Assembly (NCBI GenBank): GCA_903840435.1
Contig: CAIMFV010000060.1
Span: 78,130-142,129, forward strand
Length of the DNA stretch: 64,000 nucleotides
Reading direction: 5' to 3'
DNA from: an uncultured Caulobacterales bacterium
GTDB lineage: Bacteria > Pseudomonadota > Alphaproteobacteria > Caulobacterales > Caulobacteraceae
Shown here: in pieces, positions 6,988 through 49,027 of the stretch
Layout of the letters: each line of letters begins with the position of its first letter
How positions within the stretch are numbered: position 1 is the first letter of the stretch
Notes under the pieces: model-generated
Seen by the model: only the letters and a program-made list of their open reading frames with translations
The model's database searches: none
Told to the model about the DNA's origin: nothing
Made by a program: the position numbers and the translations under genes

Positions 6988-7509
6988 CTATCGAGCACGA
7001 CCCGCAGTGAACACCTCTTGGTCTACTGGAAACATTTCCCGTATGGTTCGATTTATCATCGTGAGATTTACGTCAAATGCGGGTGTAACATCAGAAAAAT
7101 CTTCCCATACTATGGCTGCGCCACTATTTTCTGAGTGATAAAGCAGTGTCCACAGATAAGCCCTGAGATAATGAAGTTCATTTTTTCTTTCTTTTCGCGC
7201 GCCTTTTTCAATATATAATCCAATCTGATCTGCAGCCTTTCTAACGAAAACGGCTGTAATTTCATAATCACGCACATTCCATGCGATAAGTGCGTGCATG
7301 ATGTTTGCATACACTGGGACCTCTACGGCACGTGCACCATAGAGATCCAAGATGCGCTCGACCTTTCGTCGGGCTGATTCAATGTCGCCTTGGGCCAGCC
7401 GCGCCTTTGCTGATGCCAACAAAGACGCGGACAGGACTTTAAGCCAAAGGATGTGTAGGCCCATCCTCGAACCTGAGCTCAATTGCGCAACGCTGTCAAA
7501 CGTCCCCAT
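6988..7509 (-). CDS. Hypothetical helical protein, about 173 aa
   Basis: No recognised family. The sequence is rich in Ala, Arg and Lys helices (LLASAKARLAQGDIESARRKVERILDLYG) that look like TPR or other helical-repeat pairs, but no canonical repeat can be asserted. ATG 7509 is taken as the start; a TTG at 7527 would add six residues. The distal part has lower GC than its neighbours (AT-rich around 7170-7230), which hints at foreign origin. It runs opposite to the 182-aa gene and is the last of a run of minus-strand small genes in this patch. Confidence 0.55.
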   Translation of the reverse strand: MGTFDSVAQLSSGSRMGLHILWLKVLSASLLASAKARLAQGDIESARRKVERILDLYGARAVEVPVYANIMHALIAWNVRDYEITAVFVRKAADQIGLYIEKGARKERKNELHYLRAYLWTLLYHSENSGAAIVWEDFSDVTPAFDVNLTMINRTIREMFPVDQEVFTAGRAR

Positions 7510-7584
7510 GCGGACCGTGAGCGTCAATCGAAAGCGGACCCCAGCCGACGCTCGCGAGGGCGGTTGGGAGGGGAGCGCTGCCCG

Positions 7585-8103
7585 TTAGTCGTCCGATTTG
7601 AGTGTGATGCGATGATTGCTTGGTGAGCGGATCTGTATCAAACCCTTGAAGCTGCTTGCCGATCCTTCAGTTTTGGCTTTTAGGTGGGAACCGGTAACAC
7701 GAAGCTTTAAGCTGTCTCCATCGCAGGAAGCGGCTCCGAACTGAAGATGAAGGTGCTCGTGCCCAGGCCACCGCCTGCGGAGGGCAAGGTCGACTAACTT
7801 AACAAGGTCGATTGCTCGGTTCTGATCGGTAAAAAGCACCTGTGCCTGATCCTCAATCACACCGTTACCCAAGATCAGGAGTTTGTCGTAGCAACTCGTA
7901 GCCGCCCAACCGTGGCATAGGCCAGACATGGTCAAGCTGGGCTGACCTGCGGGAAGGCCACCATGAATTTCTGAGCACTCTCCATCGCGCTCTCGCTCGA
8001 TTTTGAGCGTCGCCATGACCGTTGGCTGCTCCAACGGCTCAGCGCGCACAACCGCTGAAGGCCTGAAGAGCCCGATGGCCAGAAAGAGCGCGAATAGCCG
8101 CAT
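7585..8103 (-). CDS. Hypothetical secreted protein, 172 aa
   Basis: The start ATG 8103 is preceded by AGGA at a good distance. The N-terminus is a clear signal peptide (MRLFALFLAIGLFRPSAVVRAEP, cleavage probably after VRA). The mature part is polar, with several Cys (GECSEIHG, LCHGWAATSCYDKL) that could form disulfides, in line with a periplasmic location. No domain is recognised. It stands between the two repeat copies and beside other small secreted or hypothetical genes, a pattern seen in accessory regions. Confidence 0.6.
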   Translation of the reverse strand: MRLFALFLAIGLFRPSAVVRAEPLEQPTVMATLKIERERDGECSEIHGGLPAGQPSLTMSGLCHGWAATSCYDKLLILGNGVIEDQAQVLFTDQNRAIDLVKLVDLALRRRWPGHEHLHLQFGAASCDGDSLKLRVTGSHLKAKTEGSASSFKGLIQIRSPSNHRITLKSDD

Positions 8104-8128
8104 CGGAAAATCCTAATGGATGAGTATC

Positions 8129-8276
8129 AATTTCTGCAATGGGCCACCCAGCGACCATGTCGGCTTTCGCTCGATGGACCGCATCGAAGCGACCGGCCAT
8201 CAAACCCGAAACCCGGTCCTCGCTGATCCCCGTCGCGGGGTCGAATAGCGTGCGTTCCAAAGGGCGGTTATGGGGT
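8129..8276 (+). repeat. Diverged direct repeat, copy 2
   Basis: This is the partner of 6829-6970, in the same orientation. Read in the right frame it gives HVGFRSMDRIEATGHQTR, matching the C-terminus of the 182-aa protein (YVGFRVMDRIEATGQQSR), but no open gene leads into it. It is probably the tail of a lost paralogue. Confidence 0.75.
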
Positions 8277-8281
8277 GGATG

Positions 8282-8554
8282 TCAGAGCTTGCGGACCGCG
8301 AGATAGGCTTCCTGCTGGGCGGCTTCGCCGTCTGTGTAGACGTGATCATCAATGCCCTCGGGAGGGGCGTATGCTCCATAGTCTAGACGCGCGTTGTAGA
8401 GCCGCATCGCCTCATACCAGGACGATGCTTGGAGTTCGAAAACCTTCCTGGAATTAGGCGTCAGACTTTGGCGCAGCTCGTCGGCGCGCTGACGCACCGG
8501 CCCAAATTCCCCGCCCTGATCGTTTTCCCAGTACTCGTGCAATAGCTCAGGCAT
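8282..8554 (-). CDS. Hypothetical protein, 90 aa
   Basis: ATG 8554 (MPELLHEYW) is chosen because the longer frame upstream is low-complexity and basic and would run toward the neighbouring gene. The protein is acidic with many aromatic residues (SSWYEAMRLYNARLDYGAY, PPEGIDDHVYTDGEAAQQEAYLAVRKL). It has no signal peptide and no family I recognise. Together with the putative immunity-like gene upstream it may belong to a toxin/immunity-rich patch, but that is only context. Confidence 0.5.
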   Translation of the reverse strand: MPELLHEYWENDQGGEFGPVRQRADELRQSLTPNSRKVFELQASSWYEAMRLYNARLDYGAYAPPEGIDDHVYTDGEAAQQEAYLAVRKL

Positions 8555-8679
8555 GGGCTTAATTTGCGACGAGGGCGCATAGTCTGCAATGGGGGAGTGC
8601 TTACTCCGATCCAGCACTCGGCTAAACTCAAGCTTGGTCGGCGAGGGCAGAGGTGGGGAGCGGTCATTCTGCTTCGAGT

Positions 8680-9048
8680 TTAACGAACCCGCGACGCCTC
8701 GACGACAGCGCCTGTGCACTTGTCCAGTTTCATCGTCAGGGCGATTGCTCCTTGGAGGGGTATGGGGCGGCCTCCTTGATCAGCAGGCGCATATTTCAAT
8801 CGCAATTCCCAATCTGTTCCGCGATCCACAACCTCCAAAAATTCGCTTTTCTCCGGAAGACGCCCGTCGATTGTCGCCAGATGTGCCACGAAGAGCCTTT
8901 TGGCCGCCACCTTATCAGGCACAAAAGGCCCTTGGATGTACCCGGGAATTTTTGGGCAAGTGAGACCGGATTGACCGCCATGCGCCACACTAACCCACGA
9001 CGTCGCAAGGCAAACGGACGCGATAAAACTGCCGATTTTGAGCGCCAT
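8680..9048 (-). CDS. Secreted protein resembling NTF2-fold immunity proteins
   Basis: 122 aa from ATG 9048, with CAGG upstream. A signal peptide (SFIASVCLATSWVSVAHGG) precedes a compact domain. Its order, FVPDKVAAKRLFVAHLA, then a W-containing strand (GTDWELRLKYAP), then a C-terminal LTMKLDKCTGAVVEASR, recalls the NTF2-fold immunity family of polymorphic-toxin systems. No toxin gene is visible beside it, so this would be an orphan immunity protein or a member of a general periplasmic family with the same fold. The family call is from pattern only. Confidence 0.5.
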   Translation of the reverse strand: MALKIGSFIASVCLATSWVSVAHGGQSGLTCPKIPGYIQGPFVPDKVAAKRLFVAHLATIDGRLPEKSEFLEVVDRGTDWELRLKYAPADQGGRPIPLQGAIALTMKLDKCTGAVVEASRVR

Positions 9049-9286
9049 CGATCAACCTGCCAGAATTGCCTGAGCCACGAGACCACGGGGCGGAAAACGA
9101 TGCAACCGGCGTCGCTTGTGACCACCTCTCTCACCACAGGACACCGACAAGCGGACCTTTTGAAGGACTGCTAAGGGTCGAATCCAGCCTCAATCGCCAT
9201 GCCAGAAATCGACCGATTGACGGCGACGGCCACTGCACCCGGAGGAGGACCAGCCCGACGTGCTACGGCGGGCTGCACAGCTCTTG

Positions 9287-9616
9287 TCAAACCGCTGGAG
9301 CGCCAATGGTAGCGACAACCAGCGCACTACCCGCCAGGGCTACGGCGGGCGCCACGGCATCTGCAAGGATCAACCAGGCCAAGGTCGCTACGGGTCGACC
9401 TCGCGCCAATGATACGACACTCATAATCACGCCTACGGAGGTCATCACAGCCCCTATAGCCAATGGCGCCAGGATGGCGCACACGCGCGGTTCGACACGA
9501 CCTAAAACTATCATAGACTGGACAGCGTAGATCGGATCACCCGCCTCCCAAAGTAGGAGGCATGCCGCAAGCAGGACCGCTAATCCTACCAGGATAATTC
9601 TTGCCCAATTCTTCAT
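9287..9616 (-). CDS. Small integral membrane protein, 109 aa
   Basis: Three hydrophobic segments are visible: IILVGLAVLLAACLLLW, AILAPLAIGAVMTSVGVIMSVVSLA, and TLAWLILADAVAPAVALAGSALVVATI. The start ATG 9616 has only a weak ribosome site. No family is recognised. It lies upstream, in the minus-strand sense, of the small secreted genes and may be part of the same accessory group. Confidence 0.5.
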   Translation of the reverse strand: MKNWARIILVGLAVLLAACLLLWEAGDPIYAVQSMIVLGRVEPRVCAILAPLAIGAVMTSVGVIMSVVSLARGRPVATLAWLILADAVAPAVALAGSALVVATIGAPAV

Positions 9617-9717
9617 CGCTCTAAACTTGTATAAGGCGGCGTCATGGTGTCAACGTCCGAGGTGGATCGCCAGCCGTCATGCGACCGGGGCCGATCTCTC
9701 CGCCTCATCCACCGCGC

Positions 9718-9933
9718 TCAGCCCTTTGACGGTTTTTCACGGCGAAGAATGTCGCCGGGTTCGCAGTTGAGATAGTCGCAAATGCCTTCGAGTGTCTCGA
9801 AGCGGACCCCCTTTACCTTGCCTTGCTTTAGGAGTGACAAATTCGCTTCGGTAATGCCGAGATAGGCGGCGAGGTCCTTCGACTTCACATTGCGCTCTGC
9901 CATCATCACATTCAACGCCACGCGGATGGGCAT
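9718..9933 (-). CDS. Cro/CI-type HTH regulator partnered with DUF2975 protein
   Basis: 71 aa, essentially one helix-turn-helix: VALNVMMAERNVKSKDLAAYLGITEANLSLLKQGKVKGVRFETLEGICDYLNCEPGDIL. This is the YozG-like small XRE type, ending in the usual LNCxPGDIL block. Its ATG overlaps the TGA of the upstream DUF2975 gene (TGATG), so the two are translationally coupled. This pairing is common in many phyla; the membrane protein is thought to act with the regulator, but its ligand is unknown. Confidence 0.88.
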   Translation of the reverse strand: MPIRVALNVMMAERNVKSKDLAAYLGITEANLSLLKQGKVKGVRFETLEGICDYLNCEPGDILRREKPSKG

Positions 9934-10802
9934 CAGATGATCTCAGCGTGGTCTTTGACAATCTTCGCCGCTTTGAACATTACCGTGGCGACCATCGTCA
10001 TGGTGAAGGCGTAGAGACAGATCATAAAACCATAGAATAGCTTCAGATCTCCAGTCGGAACAGTCATTTTCCAAGGATTAAATGAGGTGATGGAATAACT
10101 CCCTTCAGGAGGCCAAATCTTCCAGTAAATCTGTTCCGTTGAATTAGTTAAAAACGAAATTATATTGTAAATAACCGGCATACAAAGTGGCAATAAAACA
10201 CAAAAAAGTCCGGATAGCGCGAAGTTATACAGATGTTTCAGCGTTGCAGAGTCAAAATAGCGACCGAAAGCCAATCCATTCAGGCATCGCGATGCTTCCA
10301 TCAGGCCCGAAGCCAACAGGAAAACCGGGCAGCTCAAACACAATGAGGGAATGAAGGCCTTGAACAGATTGTAGGGTGTAAATTGGTATTTAAACTGTCC
10401 GGCGATCTCATCCCTGCTCAGCGTATGCGGCGTCCAGGTGCATTTTGAAAGGTTTTGATCTCTCGGCTTTTTTTGGAGTTCGGGACATTTCGCGTCTAGG
10501 CGATTTTCAATAGGCCATGGTTCAGTGATCTTAAGGGCCGCGCCAAGCAGCACTTGATCGAGCAAAACGATATTTTTAGGTGGAACCTTCGAGAGACAGT
10601 TCGTGCATGCGTAATCAATCAGCCAAGCAGTGGGCGCGAAGTAAAGCATCGTCCCAATACTGATCATTAAGACAGCGCATAACGCGACAAGGCCCCCAGC
10701 CAAGGCGGAAATGTAGCTCATTGCGCGCGCGGCCAAGGCAAGTTTGCCGTGCGGCGTTTCCTCAAGCGTCCCCCGCAAAATTGCACCGGTATTCTTGAAC
10801 AT
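9933..10802 (-). CDS. DUF2975-type integral membrane protein
   Basis: 289 aa from ATG 10802, chosen because GGAGGGG lies just upstream; a TTG four codons earlier is possible. Four hydrophobic segments are seen (ALAGGLVALCAVLMISIGTM, FIPSLCLSCPVFLLASGLM, ALSGLFCVLLPLCMPVIYN, FYGFMICLYAFTMTMVATVMF), the usual count for DUF2975. Between TM1 and TM2 there is a long extracytoplasmic loop with CTNCL and two further Cys, longer than in typical DUF2975 proteins. The gene is clearly lower in GC than its surroundings, consistent with acquisition. It is coupled to the XRE regulator downstream. Confidence 0.7.
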   Translation of the reverse strand: MFKNTGAILRGTLEETPHGKLALAARAMSYISALAGGLVALCAVLMISIGTMLYFAPTAWLIDYACTNCLSKVPPKNIVLLDQVLLGAALKITEPWPIENRLDAKCPELQKKPRDQNLSKCTWTPHTLSRDEIAGQFKYQFTPYNLFKAFIPSLCLSCPVFLLASGLMEASRCLNGLAFGRYFDSATLKHLYNFALSGLFCVLLPLCMPVIYNIISFLTNSTEQIYWKIWPPEGSYSITSFNPWKMTVPTGDLKLFYGFMICLYAFTMTMVATVMFKAAKIVKDHAEII

Positions 10803-11002
10803 CAGCCCCTCCAAATCCGCGATAAATTATCAAATAACAATAAATAATTTCTGTCAATAGCGAGTTTGTCTCGATCCCAAGCTGCGCGGCCAATTCGTGG
10901 GACCGCCAAAGGCCACGCTTGACTTCAGTCCGATCTTATCAAATCCTTCGTTCGGCAAGGTGTCGCCGGGCTTGAATGGGCTTCTCACACAGGGGAAATT
11001 TC

Positions 11003-45206: not shown

Positions 45207-45296
<90 letters not shown>

Positions 45297-45724: not shown

Positions 45725-46717
45725 TCAAGAACGCGCGGCTTGCCTAGGCGCTTTGATCGTCGCTGCAATACGATTTTTTAAGCTTACCCGAAGGTCAGCC
45801 GGATTGTCCCAAACGATATGGGAAAACTGACGTGTGTCGAAATGAAGAAAGTCCAATCGATCACGGCGACAGCAAAAAATCACATTCATTCCAAGTCCGT
45901 GGGCAAGCCCCGCTTCGTAGTAGACGCCCCCCCGTGGAAGCGGTTGAAAGGAGTCTCCCTCAGACACTCCGCCGCAGGTGAAATCAGCAACGAGAAACCG
46001 TGAACGCTTAATCTCCGCGACAATCGCATCATCGATTTTGCCATTGTGTTCGAGTTCATCGATTCGGAAAGGCTCATATCCGGCGTCGCGAATGCCAGGG
46101 CTAAAGCCGTCACGCCACGCGCCCAACATCTGTGGATCAAACCACATTGCGACAAAGGCTTGCAACGAGTCAGCCGGGGAATTTGTTACGGCGTCGAGAC
46201 GGTCAAACCCAGCGGCTGTGAGGCGATATGTGCCTGATTGTTCCACCACCAATTTTTGATCTTCCAGCAAGTCGAATAGGCGGGATATCTCATCAGGCCC
46301 ACCGCACTCCGTCCACGCGGACAGATAGTCCGCCCAACGAACCTCGCCGTCCGGCAATATTGCCCCGATATGGATACGCGTCGCAGGTCCTATCCGCAGC
46401 TCGCTCAAAGCCAAGAAGAGCCGGTCAAGCCGATCCCGTACCGTCATAGGTCTCGCCGACGCGGCTTGTTCGACCGCATCGAGGGTCACAATCGGCGACA
46501 CCTCTCCGGCTCGCCTCTGGTCGATGATCCAAGTCGTCAAGCGGGCTTTCGCCAGTGGATGGAGTAGGCTCACTGGGCCGCGCATTAACGCCGGGATACG
46601 ATAACTTCCCCCCGCCCGCTCGGATTTGATTTTGGCGTCACGACCATGATTGCCGCTTTCAAGGACCGCTTGGGTGTTCCAAATCGCGCATTCAGTTGAT
46701 TCCACCGACATCTCCAT
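45725..46717 (-). CDS. Protein with C-terminal nucleoside-2-deoxyribosyltransferase/TIR-like domain
   Basis: 330 aa. The C-terminal 150 residues read QAFVAMWFDPQMLGAW, IDDAIVAEIKRSRFLVADFTC, RGGVYYEAGLAHGLGMNVIFCCRRD and HFDTRQFSHIVW, the order of the nucleoside deoxyribosyltransferase-like fold, with the candidate catalytic Glu in GGVYYEAGLA and an Asp in VADFT. This fold is related to TIR NADases. The N-terminus (ECAIWNTQAVLES, then RDAKIKSERAGGSYRI) follows the pattern of a zinc ribbon (CxxC ... CPRCGRYRI) but has lost most of the Cys. The middle has winged-helix character. It is the last gene of a minus-strand set after tRNA-Ser. NAD or nucleotide cleavage in a defence context is inferred. 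Confidence 0.68.
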   Translation of the reverse strand: MEMSVESTECAIWNTQAVLESGNHGRDAKIKSERAGGSYRIPALMRGPVSLLHPLAKARLTTWIIDQRRAGEVSPIVTLDAVEQAASARPMTVRDRLDRLFLALSELRIGPATRIHIGAILPDGEVRWADYLSAWTECGGPDEISRLFDLLEDQKLVVEQSGTYRLTAAGFDRLDAVTNSPADSLQAFVAMWFDPQMLGAWRDGFSPGIRDAGYEPFRIDELEHNGKIDDAIVAEIKRSRFLVADFTCGGVSEGDSFQPLPRGGVYYEAGLAHGLGMNVIFCCRRDRLDFLHFDTRQFSHIVWDNPADLRVSLKNRIAATIKAPRQAARS

Positions 46718-47090
46718 TCAGACGGCATCTGTGGCGGTCGCGGGAAGGAAGTATCCAGGGACCTCGGATGTTGATCCAAACAGCTTTTAGCACGTTGAAA
46801 AAATCTGGAACCATTGATGGCCCGAAGTCCCAGAATTCGTCGCTAAGAGCGCTGTGCTTGAGGTGGGCACGGTCGTGCGCGATAGGATATTCTAGGAACA
46901 TTTTTCGCGAGAACACGAGGTGATTACTGAAAAGTAGATCGAAAATGTAGCCCTTGAGCATTCCGGATTCGACGTGACTATTCAGGAAGTCCGCGGTGCC
47001 TAAGAGGCATCGTTTAAATTTTGACTGTGTGTATTTCGCTATACATAACCCCTTTGAACAATTCAATTCTTGCGAATGGTCAGGATACAT
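46692..47090 (-). CDS. Possible small protein, 132 aa, between the two main genes of the set
   Basis: ATG 47090 lies 23 bp after the stop of the 350-aa gene, and the 3' end overlaps the start of the NDT/TIR-like gene by 26 bp. The sequence is protein-like, with hydrophobic and aromatic clusters (LKGYIFDLLFSNHLVFSRKMFLEYP, SALSDEFWDFGPSMVPDFFNVLKAVW). No family is recognised. The frame extends to 47237 but that part overlaps the preceding gene out of frame. GC is clearly below the genome level. Its reality depends on a modest ribosome site. Confidence 0.4.
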   Translation of the reverse strand: MYPDHSQELNCSKGLCIAKYTQSKFKRCLLGTADFLNSHVESGMLKGYIFDLLFSNHLVFSRKMFLEYPIAHDRAHLKHSALSDEFWDFGPSMVPDFFNVLKAVWINIRGPWILPSRDRHRCRLNGDVGGIN

Positions 47091-47113
47091 TGAATTTGCT
47101 CTTGGAGCAGCAA

Positions 47114-48166
47114 TCAAGCAGTTCGGAAGTTGAGTGGGAGGCAGATAAACTTCGTCCCAGTCAACCGAATCGGCTTGATTCCCTTTCCGAGATGGACCCC
47201 ACCCTCGCTGTTGGCGATCCAGAATGGATGGGGGCACTCTTTGTGCTGGCCCCAGCGGGACAGAACGGCGAGGCTCTCAATGGTCAGCAGATTCCGAAGC
47301 TCGTCATTCAAAGCAGAAGCCTCCTCAACAACTTTGAACAAACGACGGATTTCCTGCGCGGCATTAATCGCTTCTCTCGGCGTAAGTTTTTCGAGTAGCC
47401 CTGTTCGATCGTCCCGCACGATGCTGAGGTCATCAACGATCTCACTAAACGGCCTTTCAAGAGCTAACAAGATGTCCGCCCCTCCCACGAGAGACTTACC
47501 GCCACTCACCTGCCCCAAGACGCGTTTTTCAATGACAGCTCGACCTTGATGATCTTTACTTCCCGAGTTGACATCAATTGTCAGAGTGCCGTTGGAGGCA
47601 AGACTACGGGTTAATCGATGTACCGCCTTTTTCGTCAACGATGCCACGAGTTCGTCTCGCGTTCGGAGACGGGCGCAGAGTTCAATGCGAATGACCCATC
47701 GTTCAACGAGCAGGCGGGATAGCTTATGGCAGGAGGCCAGCAAAAAATCGCGTTCTGCTCTTTCGACCTGTTCCGCCTCATACAGATTGACTGAATCTGA
47801 AAATGAGTCGCCTTCGAAGAACTCACGTCCACATTCATGTCCAATCGCTCGGATCAGTCCATCGTCTGGATGCCACGCCAAATATCCGCTCTCGTATTTG
47901 GGTGAAAATGGGCAACAAATCGGACAGGGTGCTCTCGATTGCAGTCCATTTCGAAATCTGTCGGGTAGCCGGAATTTCTGCAATAAAATCGGGGGAGTTA
48001 TGCTTGAAGGAGTTGTTGTTGAGATCAATGGCCACAGGTGCGGGGCACCCGTTTCGGCAATGTGTCGAATAAACGCCTCGACATGTTTTTGAGCAGGCCG
48101 CTCTCGAAAACGGCGGCCCCTTCGCAGCTCATCAAGAACGCGCTCTACTCTAACTGGGCGTGCCAT
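47114..48166 (-). CDS. Unrecognised 350-aa protein with Cys-rich zinc-ribbon-like segment
   Basis: ATG 48166 has AGGAG 6 bp upstream, a strong start. A basic N-terminus (ARPVRVERVLDELRRGRRFRERP) is followed by APCPICCPFSPKYESGYLAWHPDDGLIRAIGHECGREFF, a CPIC ... GHEC arrangement that could bind zinc. The rest is helical and soluble (LVASLTKKAVHRLTRSLAS, PREAINAAQEIRRLFKVVEEA). I do not recognise the family. It heads a minus-strand set with the NDT/TIR-like gene downstream, so it may sense or recruit for that effector. GC is lower than in flanking genes. Confidence 0.62.
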   Translation of the reverse strand: MARPVRVERVLDELRRGRRFRERPAQKHVEAFIRHIAETGAPHLWPLISTTTPSSITPPILLQKFRLPDRFRNGLQSRAPCPICCPFSPKYESGYLAWHPDDGLIRAIGHECGREFFEGDSFSDSVNLYEAEQVERAERDFLLASCHKLSRLLVERWVIRIELCARLRTRDELVASLTKKAVHRLTRSLASNGTLTIDVNSGSKDHQGRAVIEKRVLGQVSGGKSLVGGADILLALERPFSEIVDDLSIVRDDRTGLLEKLTPREAINAAQEIRRLFKVVEEASALNDELRNLLTIESLAVLSRWGQHKECPHPFWIANSEGGVHLGKGIKPIRLTGTKFICLPLNFRTA

Positions 48167-48529: not shown

Positions 48530-49027
48530 ATGTCTGGTCGCGAAATCGTCTGGGCGCTGGGCCTTCTTGGTGTGTTGCTGGCAGCGCTCACTAGATTCAG
48601 AAGGCTTCGTAGGCCAACTGTTGACTATCAACAAAGCGCAGTGGTCCAAGCCCGTTTGCCGAAGTGGGTTAAGCTTTTCGAGTCCTCGATGATTTGTGCG
48701 TTTGTCGTTGCGAGCATGATCGGAGCGACCTTGCTCGTCTGTCGTTTTAGCCCGGGGCTCCTGCGTGAGCCGAACGGGGTGACGGGAGCATCAGCGATCT
48801 ACTTTTTCGTTGGAACCACTTCGATTGCAATCCCCCTCAGTTTTCTCTGCGCAAATGTCGTGGGTTGGTTAATCCCTCCGGTGCGCGAGGCCAACCTAGC
48901 CGCAATGGACGGCACTTCGGTTTCTTACTGGAGTGCCAACAGAGGGTTGCTACTGTATTCCGCAGTGTCGATGCCTCTGGGACTCTTGCTCACGTTCATC
49001 GCGGTCCTTTCGCCTTGGCGCACCTGA
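48530..49027 (+). CDS. Four-helix membrane protein, 165 aa
   Basis: ATG 48530 is preceded by GGGAGG. Four hydrophobic segments are visible: IVWALGLLGVLLAAL, SSMICAFVVASMIGATLLVC, AIYFFVGTTSIAIPLSFLCANVVGWL, and LLLYSAVSMPLGLLLTFIAVL. No signal peptide or family is recognised. It is divergent from the 350-aa gene and may or may not be part of the same island. The 274 bp between it and hppD carry no gene I can support. Confidence 0.6.
   Translation: MSGREIVWALGLLGVLLAALTRFRRLRRPTVDYQQSAVVQARLPKWVKLFESSMICAFVVASMIGATLLVCRFSPGLLREPNGVTGASAIYFFVGTTSIAIPLSFLCANVVGWLIPPVREANLAAMDGTSVSYWSANRGLLLYSAVSMPLGLLLTFIAVLSPWRT

Follow-up and report, generated by a model that had tools for sequence, protein, structure and literature searches.

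An apparently variable cargo spot beside tRNA-Ser in a Caulobacterales genome holds a candidate lone anti-phage enzyme of the DrHyd/TIR type

Do the minus-strand genes beside a tRNA-Ser gene in an uncultured Caulobacterales bacterium form an anti-phage system, or do they merely share a spot? The window analysed here is a stretch of 64,000 nucleotides (contig CAIMFV010000060.1, positions 78,130 to 142,129). A sequence-only reading of it had proposed an undescribed module of three genes, encoding a protein with CPIC and GHEC motifs, a small unknown protein and an effector cleaving a nucleotide or nicotinamide adenine dinucleotide (NAD). The effector and CPIC genes are intact, whereas the small protein does not stand as a working gene; fold and residues support the proposed kind of effector, but not the trio as a module. 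On a slight balance of probability, two genes make up the cargo of a variable spot beside tRNA-Ser(CGA), and the one encoding 326 residues probably specifies a lone anti-phage enzyme of the DrHyd/TIR type, which would cut NAD+, or a nucleotide related to it, at the glycosidic bond. We regard the CPIC protein as cargo in its own right beside this effector.

In the predicted structure, the C-terminal half of the effector has a Rossmann-like N-glycosidase fold of the nucleoside deoxyribosyltransferase (NDT)/TIR type, the fold of the DrHyd/NDT superfamily. Among 2,996 scored homologues, residues were counted in the 120 listed (A2 comprises 28 of these). Glu264, Asp241, His288 and Asp290 are invariant in all 120, and the catalytic-type glutamate of the superfamily is kept in every listed homologue; together with the fold, this bears out the NDT/TIR-like C-terminal domain noticed at the outset. 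A profile of 15 divergent sequences aligns the Glu264 column with the glutamate of nucleoside deoxyribosyltransferase and of Rcl/DNPH1, at E values of 0.008–0.04 only. At the N-terminus, a zinc ribbon, C-x-x-C...C-x-x-C-G, appears in six sequences of the wide, 15-row alignment, and the same columns in the window effector read C-A-I-W...S-E-R-A-G-G. Within the window's clade the first cysteine is kept in 99 of 120 sequences and the tryptophan in 105. The ribbon has therefore eroded, but the region is conserved all the same. Winged-helix Pfam models match a helix-helix-hairpin further along at E values of 0.05–0.26 only.

The contexts in which the effector family occurs fit cargo that is mobile and probably defensive. 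Of 385 genomes from the class, 17 carry the family at E ≤ 1e-15, the window's own included. Matches at E ≤ 0.001 were found in six genomes (again counting its own) among the 60 relatives searched, and in none of five same-genus relatives. Among the 44 effector loci collected are near-duplicates (L052–L055, L061–L064), two distant family members (L035, L036) and the short contigs of L081 (3.4 kb) and L098 (5.6 kb); L076, without an open reading frame (ORF) match, is uncounted. Nineteen IMG/VR loci carry the family, in a collection whose contigs can include host DNA, and phrog_16139 is another phage-side sign. Nine effector loci, near-duplicates included, have a terminase-type gene no more than 4 kb away, and the four tested are terminase large subunits; in L048, L049 and L056 the effector gene runs opposite to packaging or tail genes. 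Enrichment near other defence genes, one of the checks suggested for the module idea, is seen for plasmid relatives, four of five, but is only thin for chromosomal ones. The plasmid neighbours are SEFIR (Leptospira), NACHT (Hymenobacter), ATP-binding/HNH (Hydrogenimonas) and TIR/TRAFs-binding (Aliarcobacter) genes, and the fifth relative, from Bradyrhizobium, has ThiF-type and helicase genes nearby. The nearest neighbours in 18 chromosomal loci look mostly housekeeping or hypothetical (by eye; five tested with Pfam). Judged from sequence, the effector is likely to be defensive.

In this reading, the N-terminal half would hold the enzyme silent until a cue of infection is sensed. Glu264 would then carry out glycosidic-bond cleavage, and the outcome would be growth arrest of the infected cell, stopping phage growth. 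We put the chance that NAD+ is the substrate at roughly one in three; the main alternative is a nucleoside monophosphate. A sensing role for the N-terminal half is what we infer.

Several observations weigh against a lone defensive enzyme. The top fold match of the effector is a nucleotide hydrolase, not an NADase; Foldseek gave no PDB match at E ≤ 0.001, and the protein matches no Pfam, NCBIfam or PADLOC enzyme model at E ≤ 1. The sensing step leans on winged-helix matches in the E range given above and on a ribbon without three of its four cysteines. Chromosomal neighbours tested with Pfam are a DNA methylase (L032, L096), an AbiEii-like AAA gene (L097) and nuoF/nuoG (L033). Distant relatives in L028 and L094 adjoin a gene for a TRAFs-binding domain, 2 bp apart or with a 4-bp overlap; these partners, of 424 and 441 residues, are 44% identical, the domain being annotated in L028. 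In L091 the effector gene has a 4-base overlap with a gene of 361 codons and a 10-base gap to one of 260, resembling the middle gene of a three-gene operon. Finally, it shares the strand of the terminase in L051, L054 and L058. The single-gene arrangement is the usual one in the family, though not the sole one.

Individual loci of the family also stand out in their own right. At L033 (6484–11242) the nuoF and nuoG genes of the complex I operon are separated by a lone gene of the effector family. The effector relative and TRAFs-binding gene of L094 (4724–7017) and L028 (5899–7847) make a two-gene pair recurring in two bacteria. The copy at L089 (6620–7635; genome G370) is broken by a stop and appears to be decaying.

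The effector might instead be a nucleotide-sanitising N-glycosidase of the DNPH1/MilB type, cutting (hydroxymethylated) nucleoside monophosphates and so starving phages with modified DNA, or acting in housekeeping. DNPH1 and MilB top its list of fold matches; their substrates are given as 5-hydroxymethyl-dUMP (as cited from PMC10483697) and hydroxymethyl-CMP (as cited from PMC4081090), respectively. We consider this alternative unlikely. Less probable is a non-catalytic nucleotide-binding regulator, such as a transcription switch of a prophage or plasmid. The winged-helix-like part is consistent with such a role, and those members of the TIR-DrHyd-SLOG class that lack activity serve as nucleotide-binding sensors, according to the part of PMC9503650 that concerns them. 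However, a catalytic-type glutamate and three further polar residues, unvarying in 120 sequences, would be unusual for a mere sensor.

Whether the effector and CPIC genes are partners was addressed by running hidden Markov models of both families against all ORFs of every locus collected. Outside the window's own genome, the CPIC family occurs in 13 loci and the effector family in 44, and none of them contains both. The expectation that the genes are kept together elsewhere fails on these counts, and a conserved module of CPIC protein, small protein and effector is not supported. A true two-gene system, with the CPIC protein as a zinc-finger sensor or adaptor whose effectors can be swapped and whose effector in the window is the DrHyd enzyme, draws on two other loci. 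In Bradyrhizobium Rc3b (L037, 10001–11766) the CPIC gene is followed on the same strand, after a 5-bp gap, by a TIR gene (Pfam TIR_2, E = 1.4e-15), a candidate pair. In Rhizobium (L023) it is followed on the same strand, after 73 bp, by a gene of 204 codons whose R-N-N-I-V-H is, by eye, a candidate HEPN-type motif under the motif rule as quoted from PMC3710099. However, an effector-like downstream neighbour is found only in the window, L037 and L023 of 14 CPIC loci. L038, whose CPIC protein shares 66% identity with the one in L037, has no TIR gene downstream, the Rhizobium gene has no Pfam match, and the window's pair has a dead remnant in the 396 to 408 bases between its genes. In the 11 other CPIC loci no TIR- or HEPN-type gene lies directly downstream, judged by eye with part of the neighbours searched; possible nuclease genes beside CPIC in L039 and L044 were seen by eye and are unconfirmed by Pfam. 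We hold a two-gene system to be improbable. Still more so is a broader proposal, that CPIC proteins are a new kind of zinc-finger phage sensor whose effectors, cutting NAD or RNA, can replace one another (DrHyd in the window, TIR in Bradyrhizobium, a HEPN-like protein in Rhizobium), and that CPIC proteins lacking such a neighbour trigger an effector encoded elsewhere.

The CPIC protein, taken as cargo separate from the effector, is the intact 350-residue product that had been noticed from its motifs, CPIC at residues 81–84 and GHEC at 109–112. A first search gave 12 relatives, itself included, at about 52–63% identity, and a profile search 30, of which A6 comprises 22. Holders include Agrobacterium, Hyphomicrobium, Rhizobium, Bradyrhizobium, Rhodopseudomonas, Aureimonas, Devosia and Camelimonas; in the class the family is found in 2 of 385 genomes, the window's own and G118. 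Cys81, Cys84 and Cys112 are kept in 22 of 22 rows. His110 is present and the H-x-H at 48/50 absent in six rows, the window's among them, whereas the 16 others have His48 and His50 and no His110. A histidine serving as fourth zinc ligand that had moved would give this reciprocal swap, and the protein is, from these residue patterns, likely to bind zinc. Its predicted structure, a beta finger with long helices (mean predicted local distance difference test score, 88.0), has no good match in fold searches. The protein is matched by two PHROGs without assigned function, 33379 and 7003, and in L040 its gene has a tape-measure gene on one side and an integrase gene on the other. In Camelimonas (L043, 7309–12960) two pieces that resemble, by eye, the halves of a ComM/YifB-type gene flank the CPIC gene together with a resolvase gene recognised by Pfam. 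At L039 (11108–11980) the ORF after CPIC joins a ribosomal L30 domain at residues 24–74 to about 200 more residues, which may be an assembly oddity.

The small protein of the proposed trio corresponds to an open frame that shares 124 bases with the CPIC gene and 26 with the effector gene, leaving a unique part of 396 bases. Some fully open frame over this part also arises in 128 of 5,000 order-1 resampled sequences. The only similarity found for the frame is to SprT/YgjP proteases, whose C-terminal end it resembles (28% identity across 60 residues; tblastn E = 1), and Pfam YgjP-like matches it at E = 0.0025, below the model's cut-off. It shares with YgjP/SprT metalloproteases this 60-residue C-terminal similarity, but is a tail only and its metal motif is broken: in place of H-E-x-x-H (H-E-L-S-H) it reads H-D-R-A-H, and a leucine replaces the third histidine. 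A working YgjP/SprT protease is rejected on these changes, and the frame is best taken as what is left of a dead protease gene of the YgjP type.

The effector can be compared with several known systems. From the DrHyd enzymes (DNPH1/Rcl, MilB/BcmB and nucleoside 2-deoxyribosyltransferases) it differs by an extra N-terminal half of about 177 residues and by its own invariant A-M-W-F and H-F-D-T stretches. Among TIR NADase effectors (SPARTA, SARM1, PADLOC PDLC00733), PDLC00733 does not match the window effector at E ≤ 1; its divergent relatives do match this model (6 of 6). The ORF list shows no Argonaute or CBASS (cyclic oligonucleotide-based anti-phage signalling system) partner beside it. With Retron-Eco1, a type II retron, it has an NDT-like effector domain in common, and retrons pair a DNA-binding winged helix with NDT (as excerpted from PMC12548924); the window effector differs in the zinc-ribbon remnant in front and in the lack of a reverse transcriptase in the genome. 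A retron effector was rejected on 0 matches to the reverse transcriptase model PF00078 in the window's own genome, the control being positive in 3 of 14 genomes. CBASS likewise lacks support, with 0 matches there to SMODS PF18144, the only CD-NTase model tried (control positive in 3 of 14, above cut-off in 2).

The setting was described correctly from the start: the genes adjoin tRNA-Ser(CGA), and their DNA is lower in guanine plus cytosine (GC) than its flanks. GC is 0.531 at 45725–48166 and 0.544 over the whole variable segment, against 0.61 in the remaining window; third-position GC is lower too, 0.57 and 0.52 in the effector and CPIC genes against 0.75–0.77 in three flanking genes. The left flank is an N-formylglutamate amidohydrolase gene and the right a hydroxyphenylpyruvate dioxygenase gene (dioxygenase by Pfam). 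The amidohydrolase has a close match in two of five same-genus relatives, G003 and G005 (55% and 50%), and distant matches in the other three (31–35%). tRNA-Ser(CGA) is adjacent to the orthologous gene in G003 and one gene away in G005 (loci L015 and L016). Because the genes past the tRNA in both differ, by eye, from those of the window, its right side looks variable. Both the effector and CPIC genes are likely imported. The last 25 bases of the tRNA have no second copy inside the window with up to 3 mismatches allowed, and the ORF list shows no recognised gene in the 428 bases between tRNA and effector gene. An alternative effector start, ATG at 46717, would give 330 codons (45725–46717). The same low-GC segment holds a plus-strand ORF of 165 codons (48530–49027), hydrophobic by eye and without Pfam, NCBIfam or PADLOC match. 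A further low-GC stretch lies at 7001–11000 of the window (0.52 at 7–8 kb, 0.476 at 10–11 kb).

Table 1. Features of the tRNA-Ser(CGA) locus, in window coordinates
Feature	Position	Strand	Basis or remark
tRNA-Ser (anticodon CGA)	45207..45296	+	ARAGORN, Rfam; left border of variable spot
Low-GC variable segment	45300..49270	.	tRNA-Ser to hydroxyphenylpyruvate dioxygenase gene
Effector gene, 326 residues	45725..46705	-	ORF list; GTG at 46705 is the likely start, as in the 326-residue database homologue P0001
DrHyd/TIR-type N-glycosidase domain (predicted), residues 178–325	45731..46174	-	
Codon of Glu264, predicted catalytic	45914..45916	-	invariant in 120/120; aligned with Rcl/DNPH1 and NDT Glu
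Helix-helix-hairpin, putatively winged-helix-like, residues 124–162	46220..46336	-	model secondary structure
N-terminal region with eroded zinc ribbon, residues 1–40	46586..46705	-	alignment columns
Open frame	46692..47237	-	between effector and CPIC genes
Decayed YgjP/SprT metalloprotease tail, residues 100–159	46761..46940	-	similarity to SprT protease end
CPIC protein gene, 350 residues	47114..48166	-	ORF list
Predicted zinc finger of CPIC protein (C81, C84, H110, C112)	47831..47926	-	alignment

The effector is a genuine member of the DrHyd/TIR kind, widespread and, within the reach of our searches, unstudied. Neither its family nor the CPIC family is described as a system in the open-licence literature, a scope outside which most subscription papers fall. 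The effector family is large, with members in prophages and others that seem to stand as single genes; the one in the window falls outside curated enzyme models. The passages of PMC9503650 on viruses name, for the DrHyd superfamily, only versions predicted as cyclases; the IMG/VR loci, host DNA in such contigs allowing, and phrog_16139 suggest another phage-borne DrHyd branch. As a one-gene candidate, the effector would be easy to assay. The main value of the window is a correction: it presents a variable spot with unrelated cargo, not a module.
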